From Porphyridium purpureum (lineage: Eukaryota > Rhodophyta > Bangiophyceae > Porphyridiales > Porphyridiaceae), in assembly GCA_008690995.1 (NCBI GenBank), contig VRMN01000001.1, positions 4,030,001 to 4,094,000 of the forward strand: a stretch of DNA of 64,000 nucleotides, read 5' to 3'. The notes beneath the pieces were generated by a model. It made no database searches. It was given only the letters and a program-made list of their open reading frames with translations, and was not told where the DNA came from. Below, in pieces: positions 25,615-59,371 of this stretch (position 1 is the stretch's first letter; each line of letters opens with the position of its first letter). The position numbers were made by a program, and so were the translations under genes.

Positions 25615-25642
25615 ATCGCGATTTAAAGGGAAACGGAAGGAC

Positions 25643-30052: not shown

Positions 30053-30380
30053 TGTCGTGGCCCACAATAATTCGGTTGTGCGACCGTCCAGGGGGTCGTG
30101 ACGGGAACGGACGCAGAGTTTTTTGCGCCTGAGGGGGCGTTTTCTCGAGCGGACCGTTTTGGACAGAAAGGTATATAAAGTACGTTCGACAGGTGTTAGA
30201 TTAGAGTGAGCCGAAATAAAGAGGGCACCGTTGACGAAGAAGAAAGAGCCTACAAGGTGTTGGGAAGCTGCACAACGGTCCTTTGGCAGCAAGGAAGAAC
30301 AGGAGGTGAGCACCGTGTGTGTACAGTCGAGGGACTGTGACACGCGGTGCACACAGAGTGGGAAGGCGTTTCCTACAACA
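29946..30380 (+). repeat. 3' LTR of the first copia element
   Basis: 435 bp, apparently identical to the 5' LTR. Its first 107 bp also encode the end of the polyprotein. Confidence 0.95.
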
Positions 30381-34419: not shown

Positions 34420-34430
34420 ATGAGCGACAT
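33312..34430 (-). pseudogene. Possible spliced or decaying minus-strand gene
   Basis: Protein-like blocks on the minus strand change frame along the region: FQFVGPLPICQGTRPSITI around 34330; KAVKLVRMKAAQGEEVGPW around 34150; MSVEALNKGAGRAQRTGF around 34090; KKLDVGPFFSLRSRGECSAL around 33820; and KREEIFELEAEAGADVADE then FVFNVTCFLSS from 33690 to a stop at 33312. A donor-like GTGAGGTAAAG starts at 33756 and acceptor-like AG dinucleotides lie near 33692, which would join the last two blocks by a 64-base intron. Two ATGs (34430 and one 10 bp further) face the REV3 start. If the joins are introns this is a rare multi-intron gene; if not, a pseudogene. No family recognised. Confidence 0.35.
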
Positions 34431-40650: not shown

Positions 40651-41199
40651 TGGCGAATCATCACCGCCGCCATTTGCCCTGGTGTGACCCTTCTGTAACA
40701 GCCACACGGATTCTGAGTCGCGACTGCCAGGCGATCGACCGCAGACTCTGCGCTGCGCGTCAAATCAAAAAAAGGTTCTATATCGAGGCGACGAGCGAAG
40801 TCAGCGCTTTCGTGCTGCTGCGCACCTGACACGCCGCATCGCGCGTCGCACACGCTCGAAATCGCGCACATGCCGCTCACAGCCAAGAACCACGAAAGTG
40901 CGAAAACGAGTTTAATTTCGCGCCGCATCGTGATTCCTCTGTGAAATCACGGAGTTCTCGTACAGAGAGCCCGCAAATCCGCGCGTAGGCGATGTTTCTC
41001 ACGCTCGTATTAAGTATAATCTCTATAAACATCGACACTTCCACAGCAGTGGCATATAATTCGCAAATCATATTGCATGATGACATGAATTTCAACCGCT
41101 AAGTTTCCTTAACGATGTTCATAAATGTTTCCAGACATTTCAATTTTCATGAAAGAAGTTTGATTGGCTCGCTCACGAAGCGGAACATCGCGTGTGACA
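40651..41199. other. Intergenic region, AT-rich towards the Fanzor gene
   Basis: The 3' flank of REV3, then from about 40990 a clearly more AT-rich stretch running to the Fanzor ATG. The base change suggests that the left end of the Fanzor-carrying transposon lies in it. I see no terminal inverted repeat, which agrees with IS607-like elements that have none. Confidence 0.4.
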
Positions 41200-42833: not shown

Positions 42834-43094
42834 GCGAACTCGCCCGATGATGCACTATTGAGGGGGCGCGAGCGAGCGTGCGACCTGCTGGCTAGCAAGA
42901 GGTCGGCGCGACCGGTAACTGGGACAATAGCGACACGACCGGACGGTCGCGCGGAGGGTATGATGGTCCCGGCCTTCGCGGCTGCTCTATATAAAAGGCT
43001 GGTGCAGCGGCGCGGAGCAGGATTGGCCTGTCTTTAAAGTCAGAGGCTTCAGCTTATAGCACCGAATTAATAGGTACTGTAAAGGAGGTTTCTC
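42834..43094. other. Unidentified older insertion, left piece, with TATA box
   Basis: Follows directly on Fanzor sequence and does not match it. A TATATAAAAG element lies at about 42991, so it may come from a promoter-bearing element such as a solo LTR of another family. GAAAAA occurs at its left edge (42828-42833) and again at 55955-55960 right of the matching piece, which could be a 6-bp target duplication. The short A-rich repeat may also be chance. Confidence 0.4.
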
Positions 43095-43100
43095 GAAACA
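43095..43100 (+). repeat. Left target duplication of the second copia element (GAAACA)
   Basis: GAAACA here is repeated directly after the element's right LTR at 49065-49070. Confidence 0.8.
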
Positions 43101-43889
43101 ATGGATTAAAAGTGTTCCGGTCCGAGAGACGCCCTGGGTGTACACCCGGAGGTACGGCGTCTCGGAATTGTTTGAGGTACAGGGGCTTTTTCGCCCGCGT
43201 GGTTTTTTACCCTGTACCTCTGGTTTTGTGTATTGTTGTCTTTCGCCCCGAGGAGCCGGAGTCGCGTGTCCGAGGGAAGCAGGAGCCGCTTGGCGGCCGG
43301 CCAGCACCCATTGAGCCGCTTGCTGACGTGGCTGGCTGTGGCTTCGTTCTGTGGAACGAACGGAGGAAAGCCCAGCCTTTGGGAGAAATAATTTCTCCCT
43401 TCCGCGTCAAGGACAGCAAGGACGGCGGGGTATATAATGGGCGCGGGCCCGTGCGGTTCCCCGGATTTCTAGAGAGCGGAAGAAGTAGAGGCAAGGGAGA
43501 AGGACACAGAGAATAAAAGGAAGAGTTGTTCTTTGGTGTCGGGTGCCTGGGCGTGGTCGTCGGAAGGCGTGGGGCCTTTTGCTGAGCCTGTGTAGCAGAG
43601 CCAGCAGCACATCGTGTCTGGGGGGTTTCGGTGCTCTTAGAGCACTGAAGGCAGACGGCGGCTTTGTCCGTTACGACACCCTGCCCCTGTCGAGACCGGT
43701 GCTGTCTGTGCCGACGCGAAAGGCAATAGTAGAGGCCCTATACGTTGGATTTTCCACGCCCCGGGTATGCGTCGTGTGGTTGTGTTCTCTGTGCTGTGTG
43801 CGTCGTGTTGCTGGGGTTCGGTCATCTGAGAAGGGTTGTGTCATCCGGGTTCGTGCGCTTGTCATCATCAAGCGTGCGAGAATTTAAAG
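43101..43889 (+). repeat. LTR A, 5' LTR of tandem copia copy 1
   Basis: 789 bp, starting ATGGATTAAAAG and ending AATTTAAAG. Promoter TATA at 43431. Several strong palindromes lie in its first 300 bp, for example GAGGTACAGGG at 43174 with its complement at 43210. Confidence 0.92.
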
Positions 43890-43911
43890 TGGTATCATCG
43901 CATCGGCGAAG

Positions 43912-44868
43912 ATGGATTCTGAGGGAATGGACGTGCAGGGCCTGCAGGGCGGCGCGTCGTGGATTGAAGCTTTCAACCAGCTTCATGCTCGTATCGGAGG
44001 ACAAGAAATGATGATTGTGCAGCTGCAGGAGGGAAACCGCCTCTTGCAGGAGATGCTGCAGAATGTGATGCATCAGGCATCTGTGTCAGCTGGTCCCGGC
44101 GAAACGGAAAGGACCGTTGCATCGCTGATTGGACGCAGCTTGAGGAAATACGACGGACAGCGCGACAAACTCGTTGTGAACGAGTGGTTGTCGAGGATGA
44201 AGCAAGACTTGGACATGTGCATGCCAGCTGGAGCGCTGGAGTCGCAGAAGGTGATCGTAGCGTCGCGCTTCTTTGAGAAGGATGCCGCGCTGTTGTGGGC
44301 AGCTCGCCCTGAAGAACAGAGGATGGCATTGGCCGAGTCCGGTTGGAATGCGTTCGCGAACTTCGTGCGGACGGCATTTGAGCCGCCGCAGGCATACCTG
44401 ACTGCTCGAACGAACTTGTATCAGCTGAAGCAGGGCAAGATGACTGTTGCTGAGTTTGAGCAGCGCCTGAGGATGGTGGCTCTGTCCGTGGATAGTGTGA
44501 CGGATGCCGAGCTCAACACCATCTTCACTCTCGGCCTGAAGGAGAAGCTTCGCCTTGAGGTGGCGCGTCAGGACACGAAGACGCTGGAAGAGTCGCTGAG
44601 GGCGGCGTTGGCTGCGGAGCAGGTTGGTAGGTTTGGAGGAGACATGAGGGAGGCTTTTCATGGCGCCTCGAGTCCAAACTACCGGAACAGCTCGTCGTAT
44701 GCCGGGACGGCGCCAATGGATTTGGGCGTCGTGGAGAAACGCCAGCCGGAGAAGCGCAAGCGTGCGGACATGGGCAAAGTCAGATGCTACCATTGCGGGC
44801 AGCGCGGCCACATCAAACCCAATTGCCCAAAGCGGAATGGGCACTTGGCGGGAGGCCCGGAAAACTAA
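43912..44868 (+). CDS. Gag of tandem copia copy 1
   Basis: 318 residues: a capsid-like helical region (LLWAARPEEQRMALAESGW, LTARTNLYQLKQGKMTVAEF) and a C-terminal CCHC knuckle (CYHCGQRGHIKPNC). The pol frame overlaps its end in a different phase, an arrangement that some retroelement families bridge by programmed frameshifting. Confidence 0.9.
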   Translation: MDSEGMDVQGLQGGASWIEAFNQLHARIGGQEMMIVQLQEGNRLLQEMLQNVMHQASVSAGPGETERTVASLIGRSLRKYDGQRDKLVVNEWLSRMKQDLDMCMPAGALESQKVIVASRFFEKDAALLWAARPEEQRMALAESGWNAFANFVRTAFEPPQAYLTARTNLYQLKQGKMTVAEFEQRLRMVALSVDSVTDAELNTIFTLGLKEKLRLEVARQDTKTLEESLRAALAAEQVGRFGGDMREAFHGASSPNYRNSSSYAGTAPMDLGVVEKRQPEKRKRADMGKVRCYHCGQRGHIKPNCPKRNGHLAGGPEN

Positions 44869-47800
44869 AACCTCGAGGGAGAAGTTGGGAGGTGCACTCG
44901 AGGGGAACGGAACCTCCCGGGATGGGCTTTGTAGGTGAGGTCTGGCGCGCTGATGCGGCGTCAAGGTTGCTCTACAAGCGTGGAACTTTAGATGGCGAGT
45001 CTGTCCAATTTCTGGTGGACAGCGGAGCATCGCACAATTTTCTTGGATCTCGCTTTGTCGGCAGATTTGAAGGGCGCGAGAACGGAATGGTCAAGCTTGC
45101 GGGTGGGCAAAGTGTCTTAGTGCATGGCCCGGTGTTGCAGCATGTTGATCTTGGGTTCTGGAAAGGGCCGGTCAAGTTTTATGTCGGACCGCTGCAAATG
45201 GATGCAATTCTCGGGTGGGACTGGCTGAGTCGCGTGAACCCGAGGATTGATTGGCAGAGGGGTTCGATGGACTTGGGACTTAAAAATGTGGAAGATTGTG
45301 CGATGGTGAATGTCGTGGACGCTCTTTCCGAGTCAAGCGGAAATCAAGCGTGCGATGGAGAAGAGGAGAGTGCCAGTGAAGAGGTCGAAGGAAAGATGGC
45401 CGGGATGGAACATGCGTTGACTCACATGCCGATGCGGGATGATTGTGAGACGTGTGTTGTGGCCAAGATCAAGAGCCGACCAGCAAGAAGGCTGGAGAAG
45501 GACTTGTCCACTTTGTCGTTCAATGACGAAGTTGGGATCGACCTGGTGGAGCCCGGACGTAACGTGGAAGCCACCGATGGAGCAAAGTACATACTGACGC
45601 ACATCGATAGAGCGACGAGGTGGGCCACACTGGCAGGATTGAGAGCCAAAACGCATACGGCGGTTGCTGAAGCTTGGACAAGCGTGCAAGCCGGGCGAGG
45701 ATGGCCAAAGGTACTGAGGACAGATGATGGAAACGAGTTCAGGGGAAATGTGAGCAATCTGGTACGGGAGAATCTCGTGAAGCATGAGATTGGGGTCCCA
45801 CATAGACCGAATAGCCACGCTGAACAGGAACGTTTCCATCATACTTTGAATCAGGGGGTACGAGCAAATCTCCTGCAGTCTGGGCTGGGAAAGCGGTGGT
45901 TTTTGCATGCCGCTCAGCATTTCGTCTTCATGTTCAATCGGCTGCACCCAGACAAGAGGTCTGGGAAGTCTCCGTATGAAATGAGGTACGGTGAGAGATG
46001 GAAGCGGGGGAAGGTAGCAGTACCATTTGGGTGCAAGGTGGTTTTCAAGAATGATCAACCTGAGAACAAGTATGCACCCAGAGGAAAGATTGGAGTCCTT
46101 GTTGGAGTTGCGGAGCATCCGCTGGCAATCTGGGTCCTTCCTCAGGAGGAGTGGACGAGTGCGGCACCGAAGCTGACTCGCACTCAGGACTTCAAGGCGT
46201 TCCCTGAAGTGTTTCCAATGCGGACTTTGGAAACAAGGGATGACGAGGAGGTCTCGGCACGTGAGGGTGAAATCGACTTTCACTCTAGGCAGGAAGAACC
46301 GGATAGTCAAGAGACTATGGTGTTGCCTACGAATACGGCCGAGGCGCGTGTATCCGGGAACTTGAAGGAGGATGTTCCCCTACCTATTGGAAGAAGGGGG
46401 AAACGAAAACCCAGGGTATCTTGGAGCCGGGAAGAGGATCAGGCCATCATGGATGGCTTACGGCTCTTTGGCTGGGGGAAGTGGGAAAGAACTCTGCAAG
46501 AATACAAGGCAGTGTTCCGCGATTCAAGAAACGGAAAGGATGTGCGAGCCCGGGCTCATAATATGGGCCTCTCGGAGGAAAATTGGAAGCAACGCGCAGG
46601 AGTTGCTCCAGAAACACCGCAATTGAACTTGACAACTTTGTTGCAGACGAGCCAAGCTCTGGCTTCTTCGGCTGGAAGAGAAGCCATGCAAAAAGAAGTG
46701 GACTTGATGATCCGATTCAAGGTATGGGATGAGCAACCTATTTCAAGGGAAGAAGCTCTCAAGGTCCCAGGCGCACGATTTGTGCGGACACACTTTATAT
46801 TCGGATTGAAGTTCGCTGAGCTTCCGGAGGAGTTTCGCAAGGTCAAGTGTCGGCTTGTTGCTGGTGGAAATAGGATTTGGGATGCCTCAGGGAAGGTCAC
46901 TCAGGATGTGTTTGACTATGAGGTGCCCGCGGGCCTGTCTGCAATCAGAATGTTGATAGCTTTGGCCGCGATCCTGGGATTGAAAATCGTGTCGTTCGAT
47001 GTGACGTCGGCGTACTTACACGCTGACTTATCAGGACCACCGACGTTTGCCATGTTGCCCCGTCACGTTCCAGGAGGAGGTGATGGACTTGTCGTTCGCT
47101 TGAGAAGGGCGCTTTATGGCTTGCCAAGAAGCGGGTCTGACTTTTCCCAGGATGCCCGCAGAAGACTTCAAAAGTTCGGGTGGGACTTGATTCACGGTGA
47201 GAAGAACGTATACGTGAAAAAGATGGCGGGAAGTGCATCTGTTGCACTCTTGGCCTTGTATGTCGACGATGGCCTGCTCGCGTGTGCCGAGAAGGATCGA
47301 GGTGAGATATTTCGAGAGTTGAGGTCAGAGTTCCTCATTGAGAAGGAGCCGGAAGTCCTCTCGGAAGGTACCCCGTTGAGGTTCCTAGGTCTCACGATCT
47401 CGGAGTCGGCGGCACGGCTTTCGTTGGATCATGATCACTACCAAGCTTTGGTGGTGAAGGAATTCGAAGAAGAACTTGGGCAGGTGCTGCGAGCGGTGAA
47501 GTCACCCGGCGAGAAGATGAATGCTGACGCTATATTGGATGTTCAAGTCGAACATGGGCATCTGAAAATACGCGAGCATGTTGGGAGGCTGCTGTGGTTG
47601 GCCAGGACGGTCAGACCGGATATATCCTACGCAGTTGGAGTGGTGGCTCGGTATGTGGATAGCTGGAACGTCGCAGCTGAGAGACTCCTGGTTCGCGTCA
47701 TGCAATACTTGAAGGTGCCTCGTGAGCCACTTGAGTATTTGCGGATGACGTCATTGAAGATCAGCGACGTAAGCGTCTTGGGTTATGCTGATGCCGACTT

Positions 47801-48284
47801 CGCTGGGTGTCCGGAAACGCGCAAGTCGACGTCTGGACGAGTGACGTACTTGGTCGCGGGTGGAAACAAGTATCTGGTCGATTGGAGCTCCAGAAGGCAA
47901 CGCTTTGTGAGCTCTTCGACCTCTGAGTCGGAAATGGCCGCTCTGGAAGAGGCGGTGCAGTTATCCTTGTTTCCGGCATTGTCGTTTCTTCGAAGCGTGC
48001 AAGAGGGGGATTATGCGTTGACCCTGCTTTGTGATAGTCAAGTTGTTCTCCGTGCGGTCGAGATGGGCTACTCGCCAAAGTTGCATCACATGGCAGTGAC
48101 CAGAGCCACGGACTTGGCGTGGATACACCAAGTTTGCGAGAAGCAAAAGCTGGTGAGATTGGAATATGTGAGGACGGGGGAAAACGTGTCCGACTTGATG
48201 ACAAAACCTTTGTTTCCGGAAGGTCATATCAGGTGTTGGACTATGTTACGCGTCCCTCAGATCGGAAGGAGGAGCATGGATTAA
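44784..48284 (+). CDS. Pol of tandem copia copy 1, with a Myb-like domain
   Basis: A frame of 1,166 codons. Parts in order: aspartic protease (LVDSGASHNF), integrase with zinc-binding remnant (HMPMRDDCETC) and catalytic core (TDDGNEF, HAEQERFHHT), a Myb/SANT-like domain at residues about 541-600 (WSREEDQAIMDGL, GWGKWERTLQEY), reverse transcriptase (SFDVTSAYLHA, YVDDGLLA) and RNase H (LLCDSQVVLRAVE, LMTKPLF). Integrase before reverse transcriptase marks Ty1/copia. The frame ends 9 bp inside the right LTR. Confidence 0.92.
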   Translation: MLPLRAARPHQTQLPKAEWALGGRPGKLKPRGRSWEVHSRGTEPPGMGFVGEVWRADAASRLLYKRGTLDGESVQFLVDSGASHNFLGSRFVGRFEGRENGMVKLAGGQSVLVHGPVLQHVDLGFWKGPVKFYVGPLQMDAILGWDWLSRVNPRIDWQRGSMDLGLKNVEDCAMVNVVDALSESSGNQACDGEEESASEEVEGKMAGMEHALTHMPMRDDCETCVVAKIKSRPARRLEKDLSTLSFNDEVGIDLVEPGRNVEATDGAKYILTHIDRATRWATLAGLRAKTHTAVAEAWTSVQAGRGWPKVLRTDDGNEFRGNVSNLVRENLVKHEIGVPHRPNSHAEQERFHHTLNQGVRANLLQSGLGKRWFLHAAQHFVFMFNRLHPDKRSGKSPYEMRYGERWKRGKVAVPFGCKVVFKNDQPENKYAPRGKIGVLVGVAEHPLAIWVLPQEEWTSAAPKLTRTQDFKAFPEVFPMRTLETRDDEEVSAREGEIDFHSRQEEPDSQETMVLPTNTAEARVSGNLKEDVPLPIGRRGKRKPRVSWSREEDQAIMDGLRLFGWGKWERTLQEYKAVFRDSRNGKDVRARAHNMGLSEENWKQRAGVAPETPQLNLTTLLQTSQALASSAGREAMQKEVDLMIRFKVWDEQPISREEALKVPGARFVRTHFIFGLKFAELPEEFRKVKCRLVAGGNRIWDASGKVTQDVFDYEVPAGLSAIRMLIALAAILGLKIVSFDVTSAYLHADLSGPPTFAMLPRHVPGGGDGLVVRLRRALYGLPRSGSDFSQDARRRLQKFGWDLIHGEKNVYVKKMAGSASVALLALYVDDGLLACAEKDRGEIFRELRSEFLIEKEPEVLSEGTPLRFLGLTISESAARLSLDHDHYQALVVKEFEEELGQVLRAVKSPGEKMNADAILDVQVEHGHLKIREHVGRLLWLARTVRPDISYAVGVVARYVDSWNVAAERLLVRVMQYLKVPREPLEYLRMTSLKISDVSVLGYADADFAGCPETRKSTSGRVTYLVAGGNKYLVDWSSRRQRFVSSSTSESEMAALEEAVQLSLFPALSFLRSVQEGDYALTLLCDSQVVLRAVEMGYSPKLHHMAVTRATDLAWIHQVCEKQKLVRLEYVRTGENVSDLMTKPLFPEGHIRCWTMLRVPQIGRRSMD

Positions 48285-49064
48285 AAGTGTTCCGGTCCGA
48301 GAGACGCCCTGGGTGTACACCCGGAGGTACGGCGTCTCGGAATTGTTTGAGGTACAGGGGCTTTTTCGCCCGCGTGGTTTTTTACCCTGTACCTCTGGTT
48401 TTGTGCATTGTTGTCTTTCGCCCCGAGGAGCCGAGTCGCGTGTCCGAGGGAAGCAGGAGCCGCTTGGCGGCCGGCCAGCACCCATTGAGCCGCTTGCTGA
48501 CGTGGCTGGCTGTGGCTTCGTTCTGTGGAACGAACGGAGGAAAGCCCAGCCTTTTGGGAGAAATAATTTCTCCCTTCCGCGTCAAGGACAGCAAGGACGG
48601 CGGGGTATATAATGGGCGCGGGCCCGTGCGGTTCCCCGGATTTCTAGAGAGCGGAAGAAGTAGAGGCAAGGGAGAAGGACACAGAGAATAAAAGGAAGAG
48701 TTGTTCTTTGGTGTCGGGTGCCTGGGCGTGGTCGTCGGAAGGCGTGGGGCCTTTTGCTGAGCCTGTGTAGCAGAGCCAGCAGCACATCGTGTCTGGGGGG
48801 TTTCGGTGCTCTTAGAGCACTGAAGGCAGACGGCGGCTTTGTCCGTTACGACACCCTGCCCCTGTCGAGACCGGTGCTGTCTGTGCCGACGCGAAAGGCA
48901 ATAGTAGAGGCCCTATACGTTGGATTTTCCACGCCCCGGGTATGCGTCGTGTGGTTGTGTTCTCTGTGCTGTGTGCGTCGTGTTGCTGGGGTTCGGTCAT
49001 CTGAGAAGGGTTGTGTCATCCGGGTTCGTGCGCTTGTCATCATCAAGCGTGCGAGAATTTAAAG
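48276..49064 (+). repeat. LTR B, 3' LTR of tandem copia copy 1
   Basis: 789 bp, very close to LTR A. Followed by the 17-bp spacer that starts with GAAACA. Confidence 0.92.
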
Positions 49065-49081
49065 GAAACAATGGCGTTTGC
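49065..49081 (+). repeat. 17-bp target-derived spacer, first copy
   Basis: GAAACAATGGCGTTTGC. It holds both target sites, GAAACA and GTTTGC, and recurs exactly at 49872-49888. Confidence 0.9.
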
Positions 49082-49871
49082 ATGGATTAAAAGTGTTCCG
49101 GTCCGAGAGACGCCCTGGGTGTACACCCGGAGGTACGGCGTCTCGGAATTGTTTGAGGTACAGGGGCTTTTTCGCCCGCGTGGTTTTTTACCCTGTACCT
49201 CTGGTTTTGTGCATTGTTGTCTTTCGCCCCGAGGAGCCGTAGTCGCGTGTCCGAGGGAAGCAGGAGCCGCTTGGCGGCCGGCCGGCACCCATTGAGCCGC
49301 TTGCTGACGTGGCTGGCTGTGGCTTCGTTCCGTGGAACGAACGGAGGAAAGCCCAGCCTTTTGGGAGAAATAATTTCTCCCTTCCGCGTCAAGGACAGCA
49401 AGGACGGCGGGGTATATAATGGGCGCGGGCCCGTGCGGTTCCCCGGATTTCTAGAGAGCGGAAGAAGTAGAGGCAAGGGAGAAGGACACAGAGAATAAAA
49501 GGAAGAGTTGTTCTTTGGTGTCGGGTGCCTGGGCGTGGTCGTCGGAAGGCGTGGGGCCTTTTGCTGAGCCTGTGTAGCAGAGCCAGCAGCACATCGTGTC
49601 TGGGGGGTTTCGGTGCTCTTAGAGCACTGAAGGCAGACGGCGGCTTTGTCCGTTACGACACCCTGCCCCTGTCGAGACCGGTGCTGTCTGTGCCGACGCG
49701 AAAGGCAATAGTAGAGGCCCTATACGTTGGATTTTCCACGCCCCGGGTATGCGTCGTGTGGTTGTGTTCTCTGTGCTGTGTGCGTCGTGTTGCTGGGGTT
49801 CGGTCATCTGAGAAGGGTTGTGTCATCCGGGTTCGTGCGCTTGTCATCATCAAGCGTGCGAGAATTTAAAG
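49082..49871 (+). repeat. LTR C, extra hybrid LTR between the two elements
   Basis: 790 bp without internal region of its own, flanked on both sides by the same 17-bp spacer. In its 5' half the diagnostic variants match LTRs D and E; in its 3' half they match A and B. This makes it a crossover product of the two elements' LTRs. Confidence 0.88.
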
Positions 49872-49888
49872 GAAACAATGGCGTTTGC
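49872..49888 (+). repeat. 17-bp target-derived spacer, second copy
   Basis: Identical to 49065-49081. Its last six bases, GTTTGC, are the left target duplication of the next element. Confidence 0.9.
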
Positions 49889-50694
49889 ATGGATTAAAAG
49901 TGTTCCGGTCCGAGAGACGCCCTGGGTGTACACCCGGAGGTACGGCGTCTCGGAATTGTTTGAGGTACAGGGGCTTTTTCGCCCGCGTGGTTTTTTACCC
50001 TGTACCTCTGGTTTTGTGCATTGTTGTCTTTCGCCCCGAGGAGCCGAGTCGCGTGTCCGAGGGAAGCAGGAGCCGCTTGGCGGCCGGCCGGCACCCATTG
50101 AGCCGCTTGCTGACGTGGCTGGCTGTGGCTTCGTTCCGTGGAACGAACGGAGGAAAGCCCAGCCTTTTGGGAGAAATAATTTCTCCCTTCCGCGTCAAGG
50201 ACAGCAAGGACGGCGGGGTATATAATGGGCGCGGGCCCGTGCGGTTCCCCGGATTTCTAGAGAGCGGAAGAAGTAGAGGCAAGGGAGAAGGACACAGAGA
50301 ATAAAGGAAGAGTTGTTCTTTGGTGTCGGGTGCCTGGGCGTGGTCGTCGGAAGACGTGGGGCCTTTTGCTGAGCCTGTGTAGCAGAGCCAGCAGCACATC
50401 GTGTCTGGGGGGTTTCGGTGCTCTTAGAGCACTGAAGGCAGACGGCGGCTTTGTCCGTTACGACACCCTGCCCCTGTCGAGACCGGTGCTGTCTGTGCCG
50501 ACGCGAAAGGCAATAGTAGAGGCCCTATACGTTGGATTTTCCACGCCCCGGGTATTCGTCGTCTGTGTTGTGTGCGTCGTGTGGTTGTGTTCTCTGTGCT
50601 GTGTGCGTCGTGTTGCTGGGGTTCGGTCATCTGAGAAGGGTTGTGTCATCCGGGTTCGTGCGCTTGTCATCATCAAGCGTGCGAGAATTTAAAG
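49889..50694 (+). repeat. LTR D, 5' LTR of tandem copia copy 2
   Basis: 806 bp; the primer binding site TGGTATCA follows directly at 50695. Confidence 0.92.
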
Positions 50695-50716
50695 TGGTAT
50701 CATCGCATCGGCGAAG

Positions 50717-51673
50717 ATGGATTCTGAGGGAATGGACGTGCAGGGCCTGCAGGGCGGCGCGTCGTGGATTGAAGCTTTCAACCAGCTTCATGCTCGTATC
50801 GGAGGACAAGAAATGATGATTGTGCAGCTGCAGGAGGGAAATCGCCTCTTGCAGGAGATGCTGCAGAATGTGATGCATCAGGCATCTGTGTCAGCTGGTC
50901 CCGGCGAAACGGAAAGGACCGTTGCATCGCTGATTGGACGCAGCTTGAGAAAATACGACGGACAGCGCGACAAACTCGTTGTGAACGAGTGGTTGTCGAG
51001 GATGAAGCAAGACTTGGACATGTGCATGCCAGCTGGAGCGCTGGAGTCGCAGAAGGTGATCGTAGCGTCGCGCTTCTTTGAGAAGGATGCCGCGCTCCTG
51101 TGGGCAGCTCGCCCTGAGGAACAGAGGATGGCATTGGCCGAGTCCGGTTGGAATGCGTTCGCGAACTTCGTGCGGACGGCATTTGAGCCGCCGCAGGCAT
51201 ACCTGACTGCTCGAACGAACTTGTATCAGCTGAAGCAGGGCAAGATGACTGTTGCTGAGTTTGAGCAGCGCCTGAGGATGGTGGCTCTATCCGTGGATAG
51301 TGTGACGGATGCCGAGCTCAACACCATCTTCACTCTCGGCCTGAAGGAGAAGCTTCGCCTTGAGGTGGCGCGTCAGGACACGAAGACGCTGGAAGAGTCG
51401 CTGAGGGCGGCGTTGGCTGCGGAGCAGGTTGGTAGGTTTGGAGGAGACATGAGGGAGGCTTTTCATGGCGCCTCGAGTCCAAACTACCGGAACAGCTCGT
51501 CGTATGCCGGGACGGCGCCAATGGATTTGGGCGTCGTGGAGAAACGCCAGCCGGAGAAGCGCAAGCGTGCGGACATGGGCAAAGTCAGATGCTACCATTG
51601 CGGGCAGCGCGGCCACATCAAACCCAATTGCCCAAAGCGGAATGGGCACTTGGCGGGAGGCCCGGAAAACTAA
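50717..51673 (+). CDS. Gag of tandem copia copy 2
   Basis: 318 residues, the same as the Gag of copy 1 as far as I can read, with CCHC knuckle at the end. Confidence 0.9.
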   Translation: MDSEGMDVQGLQGGASWIEAFNQLHARIGGQEMMIVQLQEGNRLLQEMLQNVMHQASVSAGPGETERTVASLIGRSLRKYDGQRDKLVVNEWLSRMKQDLDMCMPAGALESQKVIVASRFFEKDAALLWAARPEEQRMALAESGWNAFANFVRTAFEPPQAYLTARTNLYQLKQGKMTVAEFEQRLRMVALSVDSVTDAELNTIFTLGLKEKLRLEVARQDTKTLEESLRAALAAEQVGRFGGDMREAFHGASSPNYRNSSSYAGTAPMDLGVVEKRQPEKRKRADMGKVRCYHCGQRGHIKPNCPKRNGHLAGGPEN

Positions 51674-54600
51674 AACCTCGAGGGAGAAGTTGGGAGGTGC
51701 ACTCGAGGGGAACGGAACCTCCCGGGATGGGCTTTGTAGGTGAGGTCTGGCGCGCTGATGCGGCGTCAAGGTTGCTCTACAAGCGTGGAACTTTAGATGG
51801 CGAGTCTGTCCAATTTCTGGTGGACAGCGGAGCATCGCACAATTTTCTTGGATCTCGCTTTGTCGGCAGATTTGAAGGGCGCGAGAACGGAATGGTCAAG
51901 CTTGCGGGTGGGCAAAGTGTCTTAGTGCATGGCCCGGTGTTGCAGCATGTTGATCTTGGGTTCTGGAAAGGGCCGGTCAAGTTTTATGTCGGACCGCTGC
52001 AAATGGATGCAATTCTCGGGTGGGACTGGCTGAGTCGCGTGAACCCGAGGATTGATTGGCAGAGGGGTTCGATGGACTTGGGACTTAAAAATGTGGAAGA
52101 TTGTGCGATGGTGAATGTCGTGGACGCTCTTTCCGAGTCAAGCGGAAATCAAGCGTGCGATGGAGAAGAGGAGAGTGCCAGTGAAGAGGTCGAAGGAAAG
52201 ATGGCCGGGATGGAACATGCGTTGACTCACATGCCGATGCGGGATGATTGTGAGACGTGTGTTGTGGCCAAGATCAAGAGCCGACCAGCAAGAAGGCTGG
52301 AGAAGGACTTGTCCACTTTGTCGTTCAATGACGAAGTTGGGATCGACCTGGTGGAGCCCGGACGTAACGTGGAAGCCACCGATGGAGCAAAGTACATACT
52401 GACGCACATCGATAGAGCGACGAGGTGGGCCACACTGGCAGGATTGAGAGCCAAAACGCATACGGCGGTTGCTGAAGCTTGGACAAGCGTGCAAGCCGGG
52501 CGAGGATGGCCAAAGGTACTGAGGACAGATGATGGAAACGAGTTCAGGGGAAATGTGAGCAATTTGGTACGGGAGAATCTCGTGAAGCATGAGATTGGGG
52601 TCCCACATAGACCGAATAGCCACGCTGAACAGGAACGTTTCCATCATACTTTGAATCAGGGGGTACGAGCAAATCTCCTGCAGTCTGGGCTGGGAAAGCG
52701 GTGGTTTTTGCATGCCGCTCAGCATTTCGTATTCATGTTCAATCGGCTGCACCCAGACAAGAAGTCTGGGAAGTCTCCGTATGAAATGAGGTACGGTGAG
52801 AGATGGAAGCGGGGGAAGGTAGCAGTACCATTTGGGTGCAAGGTGGTTTTCAAGAATGATCAACCTGAGAACAAGTATGCACCCAGAGGAAAGATTGGAG
52901 TCCTTGTTGGAGTTGCGGAGCATCCGCTGGCAATCTGGGTCCTTCCTCAGGAGGAGTGGACGAGTGCGGCACCGAAGCTGACTCGCACTCAGGACTTCAA
53001 GGCGTTCCCTGAAGTGTTTCCAATGCGGACTTTGGAAACAAGGGATGACGAGGAGGTCTCGGCACGTGAGGGTGAAATCGACTTCCACCCTAGGCAGGAA
53101 GAACCGGATAGTCAAGAGACTATGGTGTTGCCTACGAATACGGCCGAGGCGCGTGTGTCCGGGAACTTGGAGGAGGATGTTCCCCTACCTATTGGAAGAA
53201 GGGGGAAACGAAAACCCAGTGTAGCTTGGAGCCGGGAAGAGGATCAGGCCATCATGGATGGCTTACGGCTCTTTGGCTGGGGGAAGTGGGAAAGAACTCT
53301 GCAAGAATACAAGGCAGTGTTCCGCGATTCAAGAAACGGAAAGGATGTGCGAGCCCGGGCTCATAATATGGGCCTCTCGGAGGAAAATTGGAAGCAACGC
53401 GCAGGAGCTGCTCCAGAAACACCGCAATTGAACTTGACAACTTTGTTGCAGACGAGCCAAGCTCTGGCTTCTCCGGCTGGAAGAGAAGCCATGCAAAAAG
53501 AAGTGGACTTGATGATCCGATTCAAGGTATGGGATGAGCAACCTATTTCAAGGGAAGAAGCTCTCAAGGTCCCAGGCGCACGATTCGTGCGGACACACTT
53601 TATTTTCGGATTGAAGTTCGCTGAGCTTCCGGAGGAGTTTCGCAAGGTCAAGTGTCGGCTTGTTGCTGGTGGAAATAGGATTTGGGATGCCTCAGGGAAG
53701 GTCACTCAGGATGTGTTTGACTATGAGGTGCCCGCGGGCCTGTCTGCGATCAGAATGCTGATAGCTTTGGCCGCTATCCTAGGATTGAAGATCGTATCGT
53801 TCGATGTGACGTCGGCGTACTTACACGCTGGCTTGTCAGGACCACCGACGTTTGCCATGTTGCCCCGACACGTTCCAGGAGGAGGTGATGGACTTGTCGT
53901 TCGCTTGAGGAGGGCGCTTTATGGCTTGCCAAGAAGCGGGTCTGACTTTTCCCAGGATGCCCGCAGAAGACTTCAGAAGTTCGGGTGGGATTTGATTCAC
54001 GGCGAGAAGAATGTATACGTGAAAAAGATGGCGGGAAGTGCATCTGTTGCACTCCTAGCCTTGTATGTCGACGATGGTCTGCTCGCGTGTGCCGAGAAGG
54101 ATCGGGGTGAGATATTTCGAGAGTTGAGGTCAGAGTTCCTCATTGAGAAGGAGCCGGAAGTCCTCTCGGAAGGAGCCCCGTTAAGGTTCCTAGGACTCAC
54201 GATCTCGGAGTCGGCGGCACGGCTTTCGTTGGATCATGATCACTACCAAGCTTTGGTGGTGAAGGAATTCGAAGAAGAACTTGGGCAGGTGCTGCGAGCG
54301 GTGAAATCACCAGGTGAGAAAATGAATGCTGACGCTGTATTGGATGTTCAAGTCGAACATGGACATCTGAAAATACGCGAGCATGTTGGGCGGCTGCTGT
54401 GGTTGGCCAGGACGGTCAGACCAGATATCTCCTACGCAGTTGGAGTGGTGGCTCGGTACGTGGATAGCTGGAACGTAGCAGCTGAGAGACTCCTGGTTCG
54501 CGTCATGCAATACTTGAAGGTTCCTCGTGAACCACTTGAGTATTTGCGGATGACGTCATTGAAGGTCGGTGACGTAAGCGTCTTGGGCTATGCTGATGCC

Positions 54601-55089
54601 GACTTTGCTGGATGCCCGGAAACGCGCAAGTCAACGTCTGGAAGAGTGACGTACTTGGTCGCGGGTGGAAACAAGTATCTGGTCGATTGGAGCTCCAGAA
54701 GGCAACGCTTTGTGAGCTCTTCGACCTCTGAGTCTGAGATGGCCGCTCTGGAAGAAGCGGTGCAGTTGTCTCTGTTTCCGGCATTGTCGTTTCTTCGAAG
54801 CGTGCAGGAGGGGGATTATGCGTTGACCCTGCTTTGTGATAGTCAAGTTGTTCTCCGTGCGGTCGAGATGGGATATTCGCCAAAGCTGCATCACATGGCA
54901 GTAACCAGAGCCACGGACTTGGCGTGGATACACCAAATTTGCGAGAAGCAAAAGTTGGTGAGATTGGAGTATGTGAGGACGGGAGAAAACGTGTCCGACT
55001 TGATGACAAAGCCTTTGTTTCCGGAAGGTCATATCAGGTGTTGGACTATGTTACGCGTCCCTCAGATCGGAAGGAGGAGCATGGATTAA
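51589..55089 (+). CDS. Pol of tandem copia copy 2, with a Myb-like domain
   Basis: A frame of 1,166 codons with the same parts as copy 1: protease, integrase, Myb/SANT-like domain, reverse transcriptase, RNase H. It differs from copy 1 at a small number of residues spread along its length. The frame ends 9 bp inside LTR E. Confidence 0.92.
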   Translation: MLPLRAARPHQTQLPKAEWALGGRPGKLKPRGRSWEVHSRGTEPPGMGFVGEVWRADAASRLLYKRGTLDGESVQFLVDSGASHNFLGSRFVGRFEGRENGMVKLAGGQSVLVHGPVLQHVDLGFWKGPVKFYVGPLQMDAILGWDWLSRVNPRIDWQRGSMDLGLKNVEDCAMVNVVDALSESSGNQACDGEEESASEEVEGKMAGMEHALTHMPMRDDCETCVVAKIKSRPARRLEKDLSTLSFNDEVGIDLVEPGRNVEATDGAKYILTHIDRATRWATLAGLRAKTHTAVAEAWTSVQAGRGWPKVLRTDDGNEFRGNVSNLVRENLVKHEIGVPHRPNSHAEQERFHHTLNQGVRANLLQSGLGKRWFLHAAQHFVFMFNRLHPDKKSGKSPYEMRYGERWKRGKVAVPFGCKVVFKNDQPENKYAPRGKIGVLVGVAEHPLAIWVLPQEEWTSAAPKLTRTQDFKAFPEVFPMRTLETRDDEEVSAREGEIDFHPRQEEPDSQETMVLPTNTAEARVSGNLEEDVPLPIGRRGKRKPSVAWSREEDQAIMDGLRLFGWGKWERTLQEYKAVFRDSRNGKDVRARAHNMGLSEENWKQRAGAAPETPQLNLTTLLQTSQALASPAGREAMQKEVDLMIRFKVWDEQPISREEALKVPGARFVRTHFIFGLKFAELPEEFRKVKCRLVAGGNRIWDASGKVTQDVFDYEVPAGLSAIRMLIALAAILGLKIVSFDVTSAYLHAGLSGPPTFAMLPRHVPGGGDGLVVRLRRALYGLPRSGSDFSQDARRRLQKFGWDLIHGEKNVYVKKMAGSASVALLALYVDDGLLACAEKDRGEIFRELRSEFLIEKEPEVLSEGAPLRFLGLTISESAARLSLDHDHYQALVVKEFEEELGQVLRAVKSPGEKMNADAVLDVQVEHGHLKIREHVGRLLWLARTVRPDISYAVGVVARYVDSWNVAAERLLVRVMQYLKVPREPLEYLRMTSLKVGDVSVLGYADADFAGCPETRKSTSGRVTYLVAGGNKYLVDWSSRRQRFVSSSTSESEMAALEEAVQLSLFPALSFLRSVQEGDYALTLLCDSQVVLRAVEMGYSPKLHHMAVTRATDLAWIHQICEKQKLVRLEYVRTGENVSDLMTKPLFPEGHIRCWTMLRVPQIGRRSMD

Positions 55090-55887
55090 AAGTGTTCCGG
55101 TCCGAGAGACGCCCTGGGTGTACACCCGGAGGTACGGCGTCTCGGAATTGTTTGAGGTACAGGGGCTTTTTCGCCCGCGTGGTTTTTTACCCTGTACCTC
55201 TGGTTTTGTGCATTGTTGTCTTTCGCCCCGAGGAGCCGCAGTCGCGTGTCCGAGGGAAGCAGGAGCCGCTTGGCGGCCGGCCGGCACCCATTGAGCCGCT
55301 TGCTGACGTGGCTGGCTGTGGCTTCGTTCCGTGGAACGAACGGAGGAAAGCCCAGCCTTTTGGGAGAAATAATTTCTCCCTTCCGCGTCAAGGACAGCAA
55401 GGACGGCGGGGTATATAATGGGCGCGGGCCCGTGCGGTTCCCCGGATTTCTAGAGAGCGGAAGAAGTAGAGGCAAGGGAGAAGGACACAGAGAATAAAGG
55501 AAGAGTTGTTCTTTGGTGTCGGGTGCCTGGGCGTGGTCGTCGGAAGACGTGGGGCCTTTTGCTGAGCCTGTGTAGCAGAGCCAGCAGCACATCGTGTCTG
55601 GGGGGTTTCGGTGCTCTTAGAGCACTGAAGGCAGACGGCGGCTTTGTCCGTTACAACACCCTGCCCCTGTCGAGACCGGTGCTGTCTGTGCCGACGCGAA
55701 AGGCAATAGTAGAGGCCCTATACGTTGGATTTTCCACGCCCCGGGTATTCGTCGTCTGTGTTGTGTGCGTCGTGTGGTTGTGTTCTCTGTGCTGTGTGCG
55801 TCGTGTTGCTGGGGTTCGGTCATCTGAGAAGGGTTGTGTCATCCGGGTTCGTGCGCTTGTCATCATCAAGCGTGCGAGAATTTAAAG
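55081..55887 (+). repeat. LTR E, 3' LTR of tandem copia copy 2
   Basis: 807 bp, nearly identical to LTR D, followed by GTTTGC and then the right piece of the older insertion. Confidence 0.92.
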
Positions 55888-55893
55888 GTTTGC

Positions 55894-55954
55894 GCATAGT
55901 GGAGCGATTGCACCTGTGGGTCCGGGCCTGTTGGATTTTCCACATTTAATGCAA
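55894..55954. other. Unidentified older insertion, right piece
   Basis: Between the copia target duplication and the start of Fanzor similarity. With 42834-43094 it would make one insertion of roughly 340 bp, older than the copia elements. Ends ATGCAA just before GAAAAA. Confidence 0.35.
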
Positions 55955-56175
55955 GAAAAACTGGTTCGAAGCTGGTGCCTGTCAATGAGGCCTATACCTC
56001 AAAGACGTGCAGCGCATGTGGAACCATAAACGCGAACTTGGGCGGCGCCAAGACTTTTAGGTGTCGCTCCAGCGTGTGCGGAATGGTCATGGACCGCGAC
56101 ATCAACGGCGCAAAGAACATTTTATTGCGCAATCACAAAGCGCTGGGGATTTCGGTCCCCAGCATTGGGGCCTGA
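55955..56175 (+). pseudogene. Fanzor (eukaryotic TnpB), 3' part
   Basis: The last part of the gene, to the TGA at 56173-56175. It reads TGSKLVPVNEAYTSKTCSAC, where the Glu is the alternative catalytic residue of Fanzors with a rearranged RuvC site. The zinc ribbon follows (CSACG and CRSSVCG, the second pair with one or two extra residues against the usual C..C), then RuvC-III VMDRDINGAKNIL and a tail ending ISVPSIGA. These motifs complete what the 5' part at 41.2-42.8 kb lacks, and both pieces are on the plus strand in the same order, so they come from one gene. The phase of this piece does not follow simply from the 5' part, so the gene carries more than one disruption besides the insertions. 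Confidence 0.85.
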
Positions 56176-56242
56176 CCCTGCCGGGGAAACCCGGTGCACG
56201 GTGTCTTGGGACACCGCCGAACTTGATGTTCGGATCAGGCGG
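56142..56242 (+). ncRNA. Candidate Fanzor guide RNA (omega RNA) scaffold
   Basis: Overlaps the last 34 bases of the Fanzor frame and runs just past it. An 8-bp perfect hairpin lies at 56142-56163 (GCTGGGGA, loop TTTCGG). Then a cloverleaf: an outer 6-bp stem GCCTGA (56170-56175, containing the stop codon) pairs with TCAGGC (56235-56240). Inside it are hairpin CCGGG-GAAA-CCCGG (56181-56194), a 7-bp hairpin CGGTGTC-TTGG-GACACCG (56199-56216) and a 6-bp hairpin CCGAAC-TTGAT-GTTCGG (56217-56233). All stems are perfect. TnpB and Fanzor guide RNAs start in or near the 3' end of the gene and end in a guide taken from DNA beyond the element. Position and structure fit; expression is unproven, and the linked nuclease is broken. 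Confidence 0.65.
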
Positions 56243-56857
56243 AATCTCGATCAGTTCTACCATGTTCGCCAAAATTACGCTTGATGTCGACACTGCCGTT
56301 TGTAAAACATGACACTGCCACAATCATTCTTCTCGTCTCCATTTTCTGCGTCAACTCTTGTGTGTTGGCAGAGTGTGATTGCAACCAGCTGGAACACCAG
56401 CTTTTCCTGGTGCATCTTGGACAGAATGCCGCAAGGCTCCGCACGATACTCGATCCGAGTCTAGATTTCTGAAGAGAGATGAGCATGTTTCTGCATCAGT
56501 TTGCTACGTACCACGCTGGGGTTGTCCCGGTGCTCCACGTGCGAATGGTGACTCCGACCTCGACCGTCTCTTGCGGTGGCGCCAATTCTGGTTCTCGCGG
56601 ACAGACCCGACTTCTGAGCCGAACCACTGCGCCATCTAGGAGTAACGTGCTCAGGATTCAGCGCTGCTCGCAGCGTTCCACACCCGCCGTGCGCAAACAT
56701 CCCTCGTCGCTTTGTCGTTCGAGCTTCGCATCCAGCTACTCTGGCCTGCCAAATCTAAGAACATGAGAGTGTTGTTTTCAACGGCGTAGAAACACTCGCT
56801 GCATCGTGTGCGCGTGGACTGCGAGCGGCACACGTCCCGTGTGCGCTCCGCGTAGCG
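56243..56857. other. Intergenic region downstream of the Fanzor remnant
   Basis: The DNA just after 56242 would be the flank next to the transposon's right end. The remainder should contain the promoter of the PPR-like gene. A tRNA-like box A on the minus strand near 56636 is not followed by a box B. No supported gene. Confidence 0.45.
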
Positions 56858-59371
56858 ATGAACGGGCTCAGATCGCGCGCACGACACGAAATCAGTCGGC
56901 GCCAGATTGTGCTTGGAGCGAGCTGTCGGCAAGCGGGCTATTCGACCGAGATCGACGAGTTCCGAGCGCGCTTGAAGAAGACATGGCAGCAACAGAGGAT
57001 TGAAGGGCACGTGCAGAAGATCGCGAGTCCGTCCCAAGCGTGGCATTATGTGCCGCCGGTGCCGTTGAATCCGGCGCGGCACAACGCCGAAACAAAGGCG
57101 TTTAATGATTGGTTGGCGATTGCGTTTCGTGATCAGGTGAATCTGCACGAGCTGAGGCGAACGCTCGAAACCAGCACCGTGCCATTTAACGAGGTGACTG
57201 TTAGCACAGTGCTTCGAATAGCGAGAAGCGTGCCGGACGGATACGGACAGGATCGAGTCATGGCGGCTCGGCGGCTTGTTTTTGCGGTGCGCATGCTGCA
57301 GCTTGCGCGCAAGAAGCATGATGTCACGTTTAACGCACACGTCCTGACACATGTTCTCGCGCTTGCCAAACCGTGTCGCAAGGTGAATGTGGTCATCGCA
57401 GTTCAGCAGCTCGTCAAGCAACATGAGAATAACTTGTCTGCGATGGCGTACAATGGTATGATATCCCATTTTGCCAGATGTGGCAGGACTCAGCTTTTGC
57501 GAAACGCGTTTTATGATGCGGTTCGCGAGCTTGGGTCTACCATTGAGTCAGCTACTTTTATGCGCACGTTACGTGGCCTGCTGAGTCTCAAAGACTCTGA
57601 TGCTGCTTTGAGCGTTTGGAAAGTGATGCGCTCACCGCCTTTCAAAGAGCTTCTGGCTTTTGACCAGCCGGATATACTCGAAAGTGGTGCGTGGGTGTGT
57701 GCATGCGCGGTTGATGCTGAAACTGACGAAGCCAACTGGATTCTGGAGCAACACAAAAAGCATGGTATCAAGCCCACCGCGGTGGTCGCTCATCTTCTCA
57801 TGACAGTCTTCATCCATGCAGGCCAGCTGGAGAAGGCACGGGAAGTCATGCAGTGGGTCATTGATCTTGGCTACGCGCTGCATGACCGCGAATGCTTCCG
57901 ATACGTCAGCGCATGCGCTGAAAGGAAGGACCAAACTGGGCTTTTGTCGCTGTCGCCGCTGCTTATCCGAGCTCAGCATTTAGGATCGACGGACAGGGAA
58001 CGCATGAGGTTCTTTCGTCGATATTTTTCTGCCTTGTGCGAAATGCTCCATGTCGAAGAGGAACAGAAGGATGAAGACGCTGATGACAATGGGGAGTTCG
58101 CCGCTCTCGTGAACAAAGCAGCTAAGTGCGCGTACAAGGTGTACACGCGATGGCAAGTTTCAGACAGCGTGGCCACAAGCTGTATTGTATACTTGGCTGC
58201 AAGGGCAGGAAACCCCAAGCTCGCTCTCAAGCTAGCGGACGCTTGTCATAGAAGGGATTTGCTCACGGACAACACTTTGCGGGCGTTTGCTTATCGTGCC
58301 TTAGCACTCGTTTGCCTCGAAACGGGCAAGGTCAAGGAGCTGCTCGAACTGATCTTTGAAGAGGCCAGCGTACCTTCTGCCCGTCGCCTTTCGCTGAATG
58401 CTATTACATTCGCTGCCACGAGTTTTATCAACGCATTGGGGCGTGCGGATCGGATCGATTTGTGCAAAGACATTTATTTTCGCGTGAGCCCGTCGATCTG
58501 CTCTGTCGGCGTGTCCACAGCCTATATGTTTGAGTTGGGACGGGCAGGGTACCCAGAAGAGGCGATCGATATCTTCCGTGATCTTCAGATGCGAGCAAAG
58601 CACAATCCCGCACTAGGACCGAACGAAATTACCCATGCGGCGCTCGCTGCGTTGGTGGTGAGGCATGCTCGATCGGAGGAGCTCTCAAAGCGAACGGTCA
58701 ATAAGATTCTGTATGAAATGGCTTTGTTTACGAGTCGTAAGGACAACTACGATCGTCAAATATCAAATCTGTCTGCCCAGATCGAGCCAATGGAGCGCTG
58801 CTCCGAACGGGTTAAAATTGAGAAACAGCTGATTGACCTCCGTCGACGTGCAGACTCAAAGCTGTATCTTCGCCGAACATTGCCCCGAATCAATGAGCAT
58901 CTGGGATTCTCTGACTTTTCAAGATTTCCGGACGTGCATCTGGATGCACCAGAGACTAACTTTCAGCAATATCGAGGCAAATCCAGAGGCGACGACGACG
59001 ACGACGAAGAAGAAGAAGAAGAAGAGTATGAAGACGATGATGACGAGCAAGATGATATGAGTTGGTCTCATCAAAATCGTATGGCCGAAAAGGACAGGCG
59101 CCGCGAGAGAAACCTCCGAGAACGAAGAGCGAGGGAGGAAGCTCTGACATACTTCCGGCCAGAAGAAAGAAGGCCGAGAGATTTGCAGGACGCGGTAAGA
59201 TATTTCGGTAGGGCAGGCTCGGAAGACGATGAGCAGATGACTCGCGAGGGCAAAGCGGAAATGGAAAGGGCAAAATGGAGGGTAAGAGATACGAAGCGCA
59301 CCGGACGCGACCAATCCATGCGGGCAAAGGCGGCCTCGCCGCAATTTGCAGATGACGAAGATGCTTTTTGA
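56858..59371 (+). CDS. Pentatricopeptide-repeat-like organellar protein
   Basis: An 837-residue protein from the ATG at 56858. The N-terminus is Arg/Ser-rich with few acids (MNGLRSRARHEISRRQIVLG), as for organelle import. The body is a long series of paired helices with PPR character, for example NNLSAMAYNGMISHFARCG, DSDAALSVWKVM, GQLEKAREVMQWVIDLGYAL and RAGYPEEAIDIFRDLQMRA. The C-terminus is a charged tail with a long Asp/Glu run (about residues 710-735) followed by basic segments. PPR proteins bind organellar RNA and act in processing, stability or translation. The repeats are too divergent to predict an RNA target. A SMR or DYW end domain is not seen. Confidence 0.75.
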   Translation: MNGLRSRARHEISRRQIVLGASCRQAGYSTEIDEFRARLKKTWQQQRIEGHVQKIASPSQAWHYVPPVPLNPARHNAETKAFNDWLAIAFRDQVNLHELRRTLETSTVPFNEVTVSTVLRIARSVPDGYGQDRVMAARRLVFAVRMLQLARKKHDVTFNAHVLTHVLALAKPCRKVNVVIAVQQLVKQHENNLSAMAYNGMISHFARCGRTQLLRNAFYDAVRELGSTIESATFMRTLRGLLSLKDSDAALSVWKVMRSPPFKELLAFDQPDILESGAWVCACAVDAETDEANWILEQHKKHGIKPTAVVAHLLMTVFIHAGQLEKAREVMQWVIDLGYALHDRECFRYVSACAERKDQTGLLSLSPLLIRAQHLGSTDRERMRFFRRYFSALCEMLHVEEEQKDEDADDNGEFAALVNKAAKCAYKVYTRWQVSDSVATSCIVYLAARAGNPKLALKLADACHRRDLLTDNTLRAFAYRALALVCLETGKVKELLELIFEEASVPSARRLSLNAITFAATSFINALGRADRIDLCKDIYFRVSPSICSVGVSTAYMFELGRAGYPEEAIDIFRDLQMRAKHNPALGPNEITHAALAALVVRHARSEELSKRTVNKILYEMALFTSRKDNYDRQISNLSAQIEPMERCSERVKIEKQLIDLRRRADSKLYLRRTLPRINEHLGFSDFSRFPDVHLDAPETNFQQYRGKSRGDDDDDEEEEEEEYEDDDDEQDDMSWSHQNRMAEKDRRRERNLRERRAREEALTYFRPEERRPRDLQDAVRYFGRAGSEDDEQMTREGKAEMERAKWRVRDTKRTGRDQSMRAKAASPQFADDEDAF

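Follow-up and report, generated by a model that had tools for sequence, protein, structure and literature searches.

A probable Fanzor2-type guide-RNA scaffold with a predicted 3' pseudoknot at the end of a dead Fanzor gene in Porphyridium purpureum

Introduction

The closest described counterparts of the RNA considered here are the guide RNAs (reRNAs) of IS607-type TnpB, or "pro-Fanzor," nucleases. In the cyanobacterial and Dehalococcoidia elements collected below, and in ISXfa1 as described in PMC10711439, a stem-loop (SL1) and a short linker are followed by a 3-bp stem with a 6-nt loop, further hairpins, a right arm and a terminal GG, with the pseudoknot beside the guide; the locus that we describe has this same succession. 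The IS607 pseudoknot was found necessary in ISXfa1 by breaking and restoring mutations, and IS607 crossover is placed between GG dinucleotides, the flanking G being part of the scaffold (PMC10711439). The same article predicts a pseudoknot in Fanzor2 and none in Fanzor1, for which it gives the tripeptide TDG as a mark. The RAGATH-18 reRNA of ISFba1, representing other IS607 TnpBs, resembles our locus in that an apical loop of its 5' part forms a pseudoknot with the bases immediately preceding the guide (PMC11061315).

On the eukaryotic side, the Fanzor1 omega RNAs of SpuFz1, GtFz1 and PpFz1 are, by description, similar to our locus in that SL1 stands near the gene end and the guide comes from flanking DNA (PMC10432273, PMC11423790). 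The GtFz1 scaffold overlaps the last codons of its gene (PMC11423790), as ours does and as is published for Fanzor omega RNAs of other species (PMC10432273), whereas the SpuFz1 omega RNA is described as lacking the pseudoknot (PMC10432273). For Fanzor2, the RNA of mimivirus L79 is listed at 247 nt in a CASP16 table (PMC12248019). The sole description of a red-algal Fanzor that we found, in a literature search that left out supplements and does not prove absence, is that of CMe-1A from Cyanidioschyzon merolae. It shares with ours a red-algal host and an element that is unclassified; it differs, by description, in being filed as Fanzor1 and having ∼150 copies (PMC3627910).

Results

A Fanzor gene broken by a frameshift and insertions

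We analyzed a stretch of 64,000 nucleotides (the window) from contig VRMN01000001.1 of P. purpureum. The window is eukaryotic: it has 16 ORFs of 330 aa or more, one of them the Fanzor frame, and scanning of the other 15 gave matches that include BRK, LIM, SAPS, HSP90, REV3_N, PPR and RVT_2. The HSP90 lies at 30890-33226 and a REV3-type polymerase at 34420-40650. The Fanzor gene lies in pieces, as follows.

41200-42597, plus strand: N-terminal Fanzor part (REC/WED region, RuvC-I, VVALDPSVRTFQT), with TnpB matches
42600-42842, plus strand: middle Fanzor part, in another frame (RuvC-II region, LLPTFAVSNM, canonical Glu absent)
42843-55943, no strand: ∼13.1 kb of insertions between the middle and C-terminal parts, an older insert with Copia elements inside it
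55939-56175, plus strand: C-terminal Fanzor part (VNEAYTSKTC, C4 zinc ribbon, DRDINGAKNI), ending in the stop codon TGA

The C-terminal part proper covers ∼55946-56172, the first codons of its frame being insert sequence. Its match to Pfam PF07282 (E 5.8e-18), the TnpB/Fanzor zinc ribbon and RuvC-III, together with DRDINGAKNI, bears out the Fanzor frame named in a preliminary description. NCBIfam guided_TnpB matched the C-terminal part (3e-14) and the middle part (2.2e-07), both below the whole-protein cut-off, as pieces of a protein would be expected to be. In its 14 best matches to the TnpBs of the loci collected below (best L085, 4e-24; L064, 8e-20; L015, 7e-19), the N-terminal part was 23 to 25% identical along most of its sequence, and the middle part was 54% and 50% identical to the viral-contig proteins L007 and L006, respectively.

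Among solved proteins, mimivirus Fanzor2 L79 (PDB 9b0l) was the best relative of the C-terminal part by sequence (9.6e-11) and also came first in a search with a family profile (3.2e-55), whose 22 rows include the N-terminal part from the window. An AlphaFold model of the N-terminal part, weak at pLDDT 60, also retrieved the L79 chain first by fold (E 7.6e-07, TM 0.30); by sequence, the N-terminal part alone had no match in the PDB. A string test for TDG, the Fanzor1 motif in WED, found none in 41200-42597, and the bare string is a poor marker, as four relatives contain it. The Fanzor resembles Fanzor2 rather than Fanzor1. The RuvC-I motif, as read in the broken gene, is DPS instead of the usual DPG. 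The canonical RuvC-II Glu is absent from LLPTFAVSNM of the middle part, and a RuvC Glu stands in the alternative place, in VNEAYTSKTC of the C-terminal part. Both segments align with relatives; the canonical-type L012 has NPAYTS and LEDL. We read this Glu from the alignment as the published Ealt.

This copy of the gene is dead. The N-terminal frame is terminated by a frameshift near 42598, and an older insert of ∼330 bp and ∼12.8 kb of Copia elements follow; these frame breaks, absent from the preliminary description, exclude a protein function for the copy. Read by eye, the older insert consists of the pieces 42843-43100, 49065-49081 and 55889-55943 and is flanked on both sides by GAAAAA, likely a 6-bp target duplication. 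An in-phase intron in place of an insertion was rejected because of a phase misfit, also read by eye. Copia LTRs lie at 43101-43889, 48276-49064, 49082-49871, 49887-50694 and 55081-55888. Identity within the two flanking pairs is 99.6% and 99.8%, and RVT_2 was found in both 1,166-aa ORFs. Fanzor copies with Gypsy/Ty3 insertions have been published from other species, as have "ghost" loci in which the protein is missing and the omega RNA region retained (PMC10432273).

Some further features of the insertions were observed. The stretch 43101-55888 contains two near-identical full Copia elements in tandem with the fifth LTR between them, and a 17-base sequence, GAAACAATGGCGTTTGC, is present at both 49065-49081 and 49872-49888, a pattern that unequal recombination would leave. 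The older insert, at 42843-43100 and 55889-55943, has a TATATAAAAG box and an ATG at the Copia insertion point (by eye).

A compact set of stems around the stop codon

The preliminary description had reported five perfect stems in the last codons of the Fanzor frame and the bases beyond.

56142-56149/56156-56163 (56142-56163), plus strand: SL1, hairpin of 8 bp, or of 9 bp if an inner T-G pair is counted; overlaps the final codons
56181-56185/56190-56194 (56181-56194), plus strand: hairpin H1, 5 bp, GAAA tetraloop
56199-56205/56210-56216 (56199-56216), plus strand: hairpin H2, 7 bp
56217-56222/56228-56233 (56217-56233), plus strand: hairpin H3, 6 bp
56170-56175/56235-56240, plus strand: closing stem, 6 bp

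A direct check of 56142-56242 found all five where they had been placed and perfect, with the stop codon (TGA, 56173-56175) within the left arm of the closing stem, as claimed. The 103 nt of 56140-56242 fold to -58.7 kcal/mol, compared to -41.3 ± 3.7 for 1,000 dinucleotide shuffles (z -4.67), none of which was equally low. This is the lowest energy among 1,065 segments of 103 nt scanned on the plus strand at steps of 60, two of which (starts 17221 and 42481; 25 shuffles each) have a stronger z. The region contains four perfect hairpins (stem of at least 5, loop of 3 to 8), and the maximum in 5,000 shuffles was three, reached in 51 of them. The claim that the stems are far above chance therefore holds. 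The fold check proposed for 56130-56300 gave a weaker z (-3.17; 2 of 200 shuffles as low), and the closing stem has a probability of 0.00 there, being lost to pairing with downstream bases. In four tested stretches ending at 56242 or 56262, its probability is 0.91 to 1.00 (0.77 to 0.84 for the innermost A-T pair).

The cloverleaf matched no tRNA model, ARAGORN finding 0 genes in the window. Rfam gave no match to the scaffold stretch at E values up to 5 and none to the loci of 18 relatives at gathering scores; in lacking a RAGATH-18 match, both differ from the ISFba1 reRNA.

Bacterial and viral relatives share a covarying 3' pseudoknot

Searches with the C-terminal part gave 11 loci in IMG/VR and 98 in GTDB genomes, 80 of which were kept. 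The N-terminal part found no relative in IMG/VR, and the single IMG/VR match of the middle part (L012, a canonical TnpB) was dropped. The relatives are TnpB genes of IS607 type, found in bacteria and on viral contigs, and a match to an IS607-type recombinase (two queries, 1e-5) was present in 69 of 92 loci, L012 included. Motif and enough downstream sequence were available for 84 of the 92 loci, which were reduced to 37 non-redundant relatives; 22 were selected for folding. In 33 of the 37, the 3' end of tnpB has a common layout, namely, a 3-bp stem with a 6-nt loop, hairpins, the complement of the loop, and GG or AG. Loop and complement were unassignable in the other four (L021, L077, L082 and L088). 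SL1 of the relatives lies upstream of the linker, mostly over the NGARGIFLRAL codons.

The right arms of the relatives' pseudoknots were picked manually, knowing what they should be complementary to. Over 21 distinct rows, the pseudoknot and its stem were paired in 94.0% of 168 cells (71.6% when shuffled), with a covariation of 0.515 (0.115) and 28 cells with two-sided changes (7.7). Sliding the partner by 1 to 3 columns decreased pairing to 15 to 44%. The pair adjoining the element end is G-C in 21 of 21 rows, and two-sided changes occur in all the other four pseudoknot pairs. SL1 was paired in 97.1% of 280 cells over 28 distinct rows, with a covariation of 0.481 versus 0.141 and 44 two-sided changes versus 10.7 after shuffling; protein constraint contributes to this conservation, as the relatives' SL1 overlies codons. 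An unanchored automatic scan for pseudoknots matched 24 of 38 sequences, with 12.2 expected, a weak excess from a scan that is too permissive. As the arms were hand-picked and the automatic scan was weak, the case rests on the fixed position, the two-sided changes and the element ends.

The window has the relatives' layout

The corresponding elements of the window are listed below.

56164-56166, plus strand: ATT linker; [AT]TT at the same place in 25 of 33 relatives
56167-56178, plus strand: GGG-GCCTGA-CCC, 6-nt loop on a 3-bp stem; the left pseudoknot arm is formed by this loop, which contains the stop codon
56235-56240, plus strand: TCAGGC, right pseudoknot arm, complementary to all six loop bases; an arm of the closing stem in the preliminary description
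56241-56242, plus strand: GG, probable right end of the element and of the scaffold, by analogy with multi-copy relatives
56243-56258, plus strand: predicted first 16 guide nucleotides, from flanking DNA

The chain thus reads SL1 (ending AGC), ATT, GGG-GCCTGA-CCC, three hairpins, A-TCAGGC and GG. When both strands of the window were searched for the relatives' motif, the site at 56167-56178 was the single one found with a matching right arm; shuffles average 0.22 sites per window. A 3-bp stem with a six-base loop fully complementary to a downstream arm and then GG arose in 109 of 20,000 shuffles of 56101-56300. Of 99 loci collected, 12 contain the window's own form, GCWTTGGG-N6-CCC, one time each. 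They amount to 8 places because L094, L095, L096 and L099 duplicate L010, L011, L007 and L009, respectively; in all 8, it starts 48 to 93 bases upstream of the tnpB stop.

The structure, its position at the end of the gene and the layout held in common with covarying relatives are direct observations. Since this layout is the same as that of the bacterial relatives' guide-RNA handles, 56140-56242 is very probably the guide-RNA scaffold (omega RNA, or reRNA) of a Fanzor2-type, IS607-derived nuclease, at the 3' end of the dead copy. The guide-RNA scaffold proposed in the preliminary description was right in kind, its layout being that of 33 of 37 relatives, but the cloverleaf needs recasting: the six pairs of its closing stem are present but are, from the sequence, best read as the known TnpB/Fanzor2 3'-terminal pseudoknot, with the stop codon in the left arm. 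A 3' pseudoknot adjoining the guide is what the sequence geometry indicates when set against the covarying relatives.

The scaffold appears modestly unusual within this known kind of guide RNA. Its SL1 lies ∼30 nt 3' of the NGA[RK] codons, whereas in the IS607 TnpB relatives it covers them. Extra sequence between these codons and the linker also occurs in the viral-contig group L006-L011 and in L050 and L067, and an extra hairpin there is common to the window and L006-L011. The window has three inner hairpins, versus two in most of the relatives' folds inspected (uncounted), and a 6-bp pseudoknot, versus 5 bp in theirs; it lacks the A run that precedes the right arm in 30 of 33 relatives, and its stop codon lies inside the loop. 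It also differs from IS607 TnpB loci in having no convincing serine recombinase: a search of the window for IS607 TnpA with the same two queries as above gave nothing convincing (best tblastn E 0.004, at 33540). No second copy of the scaffold was found within the window, and the red-algal Fanzor family of the preliminary description is accordingly putative.

In IMG/VR, the 15-mer ATTGGGGCCTGACCC had exact matches in 14 stretches, four of them with TCAGG within the next 130 bases, which we took as chance; TCAGGCGG was absent from the printed stretches of these 14 matches.

Element end and predicted guide

In multi-copy relatives, identity stops right after the pseudoknot arm and GG or AG. The sequence up to ...GTATCGG is the same, or almost the same, in five Dehalococcoidia copies and in 13 rows from Anabaenopsis/Nodularia, and what follows is unrelated; the 13 rows have 11 different flanks, one shared by three rows. 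Chromatiaceae and Thiospirillum rows behave in the same way, and L052 and L053 end after GTAGCAG. These observed ends agree with the published IS607 GG crossover and with a scaffold that takes in the flanking G. By analogy, we infer that the right end of the element in the window follows GG at 56242. The preliminary expectation of a guide starting soon after 56242 fits, because the multi-copy relatives end after the arm and GG. Allowing up to 3 mismatches, we found no second match to 56243-56258 within the window.

In the five AG-ending relatives (L001, L014, L020, L048 and L052), the unpaired first loop base is G, and in GG-ending relatives it is A or T in 27 of 28, L041 having G. The loop base may therefore covary with the crossover dinucleotide. 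Comparison of 40660-41300 with 56130-56860 showed no convincing terminal inverted repeats. An imperfect direct repeat, AAACATCGACACTTCCACA at 41027-41045 and AAACATGACACTGCCACA at 56305-56322, flanks the Fanzor (19-mer, E 0.044), perhaps by chance.

Alternative explanations of the hairpins

The pairing in the window fits a pseudoknot or a plain stem, and the six-base helix might be an ordinary Fanzor1-type omega RNA stem that closes a cloverleaf with no pseudoknot, giving the same function in a different class. Folding alone prefers the closed form (-55.7, versus -51.3 with GGG-CCC instead; probability of 0.92 for the closed cloverleaf and 0.05 for the GGG-CCC stem). In addition, the terminal scaffold bases of Fanzor1 are described as a double-stranded stem, with the pseudoknot lost (PMC10711439), and GtFz1 is described as having SL1 and three stem loops (PMC11423790). 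However, a nested folder cannot score a pseudoknot, which would keep the six pairs and have the GGG-CCC stem in addition. The GGG/CCC flanks favor the pseudoknot and agree, like the exact 6-nt loop and the ATT linker, with the pseudoknot-bearing relatives; moreover, the best solved relative is a Fanzor2 and the N-terminal part lacks TDG, poor marker though the bare string is. We thus consider a Fanzor1-type stem possible but unlikely.

The location of the hairpins at the probable element end would also suit transposase binding sites or palindromic ends, that is, DNA sites and not RNA, and the ends of IS200/IS605 and IS607 elements are described as partly palindromic (PMC11061315). Yet upstream of 41200 no counterpart, inverted or direct, is conspicuous, the best being the direct 19-mer mentioned above, and the covariation of the relatives' helices follows the pseudoknot geometry that a known guide RNA has. 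DNA sites are therefore a very improbable substitute for a guide RNA, although RNA and DNA roles may coexist. That G+C-rich DNA (57% G+C) gave rise to the hairpins as chance or codon-driven palindromes seems scarcely credible: the even stronger z values at 17221 and 42481 speak for it, but shuffles reached neither the energy (0 of 1,000) nor four perfect hairpins (0 of 5,000) and seldom the stem-loop-arm-GG geometry (109 of 20,000), and the bulk of the structure lies 3' of the stop codon.

Proposed working of the guide RNA

With 56140-56242 taken as a Fanzor2-type scaffold, transcription, processing, binding and targeting of the omega RNA would proceed as follows. The 3' end of the mRNA of a live gene would be trimmed to the ∼103-nt scaffold and some 15 to 20 nt of flank from 56243. 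The loop GCCUGA would pair with UCAGGC to form the pseudoknot beside the guide, SL1 and the pseudoknot would be the handle bound by the nuclease, and the nuclease would be directed to DNA matching the guide. This gives a base-level, testable guide-RNA model for a eukaryotic Fanzor, and the guide-RNA layout of IS607 TnpB is recognizable in a eukaryotic genome from one broken copy. The scaffold also bears on how the Fanzor2 pseudoknot could become the plain stem of Fanzor1.

Immediately upstream of the intact scaffold stands a Copia LTR of the same orientation. We can imagine, as a speculation that we hold to be improbable, an orphan guide RNA driven by the Copia LTR and used by the Fanzor proteins of other copies; the scaffold, with a six-base helix readable as Fanzor2 pseudoknot or Fanzor1 stem, may also be an intermediate in the published pseudoknot loss.

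Other features of the window

In the folding scan, z was strongest at 17221-17323 (-7.0, 25 shuffles), within ORF 16483-18357, and a tandem repeat of ∼60 bp occupies 6683-7033, at the end of ORF 5792-7054; neither ORF had a Pfam match at 1e-4. A further Copia-type element (RVT_2) lies at 25179-30380, and because its 436-bp end repeats are 100% identical, it is probably a very recent insertion.
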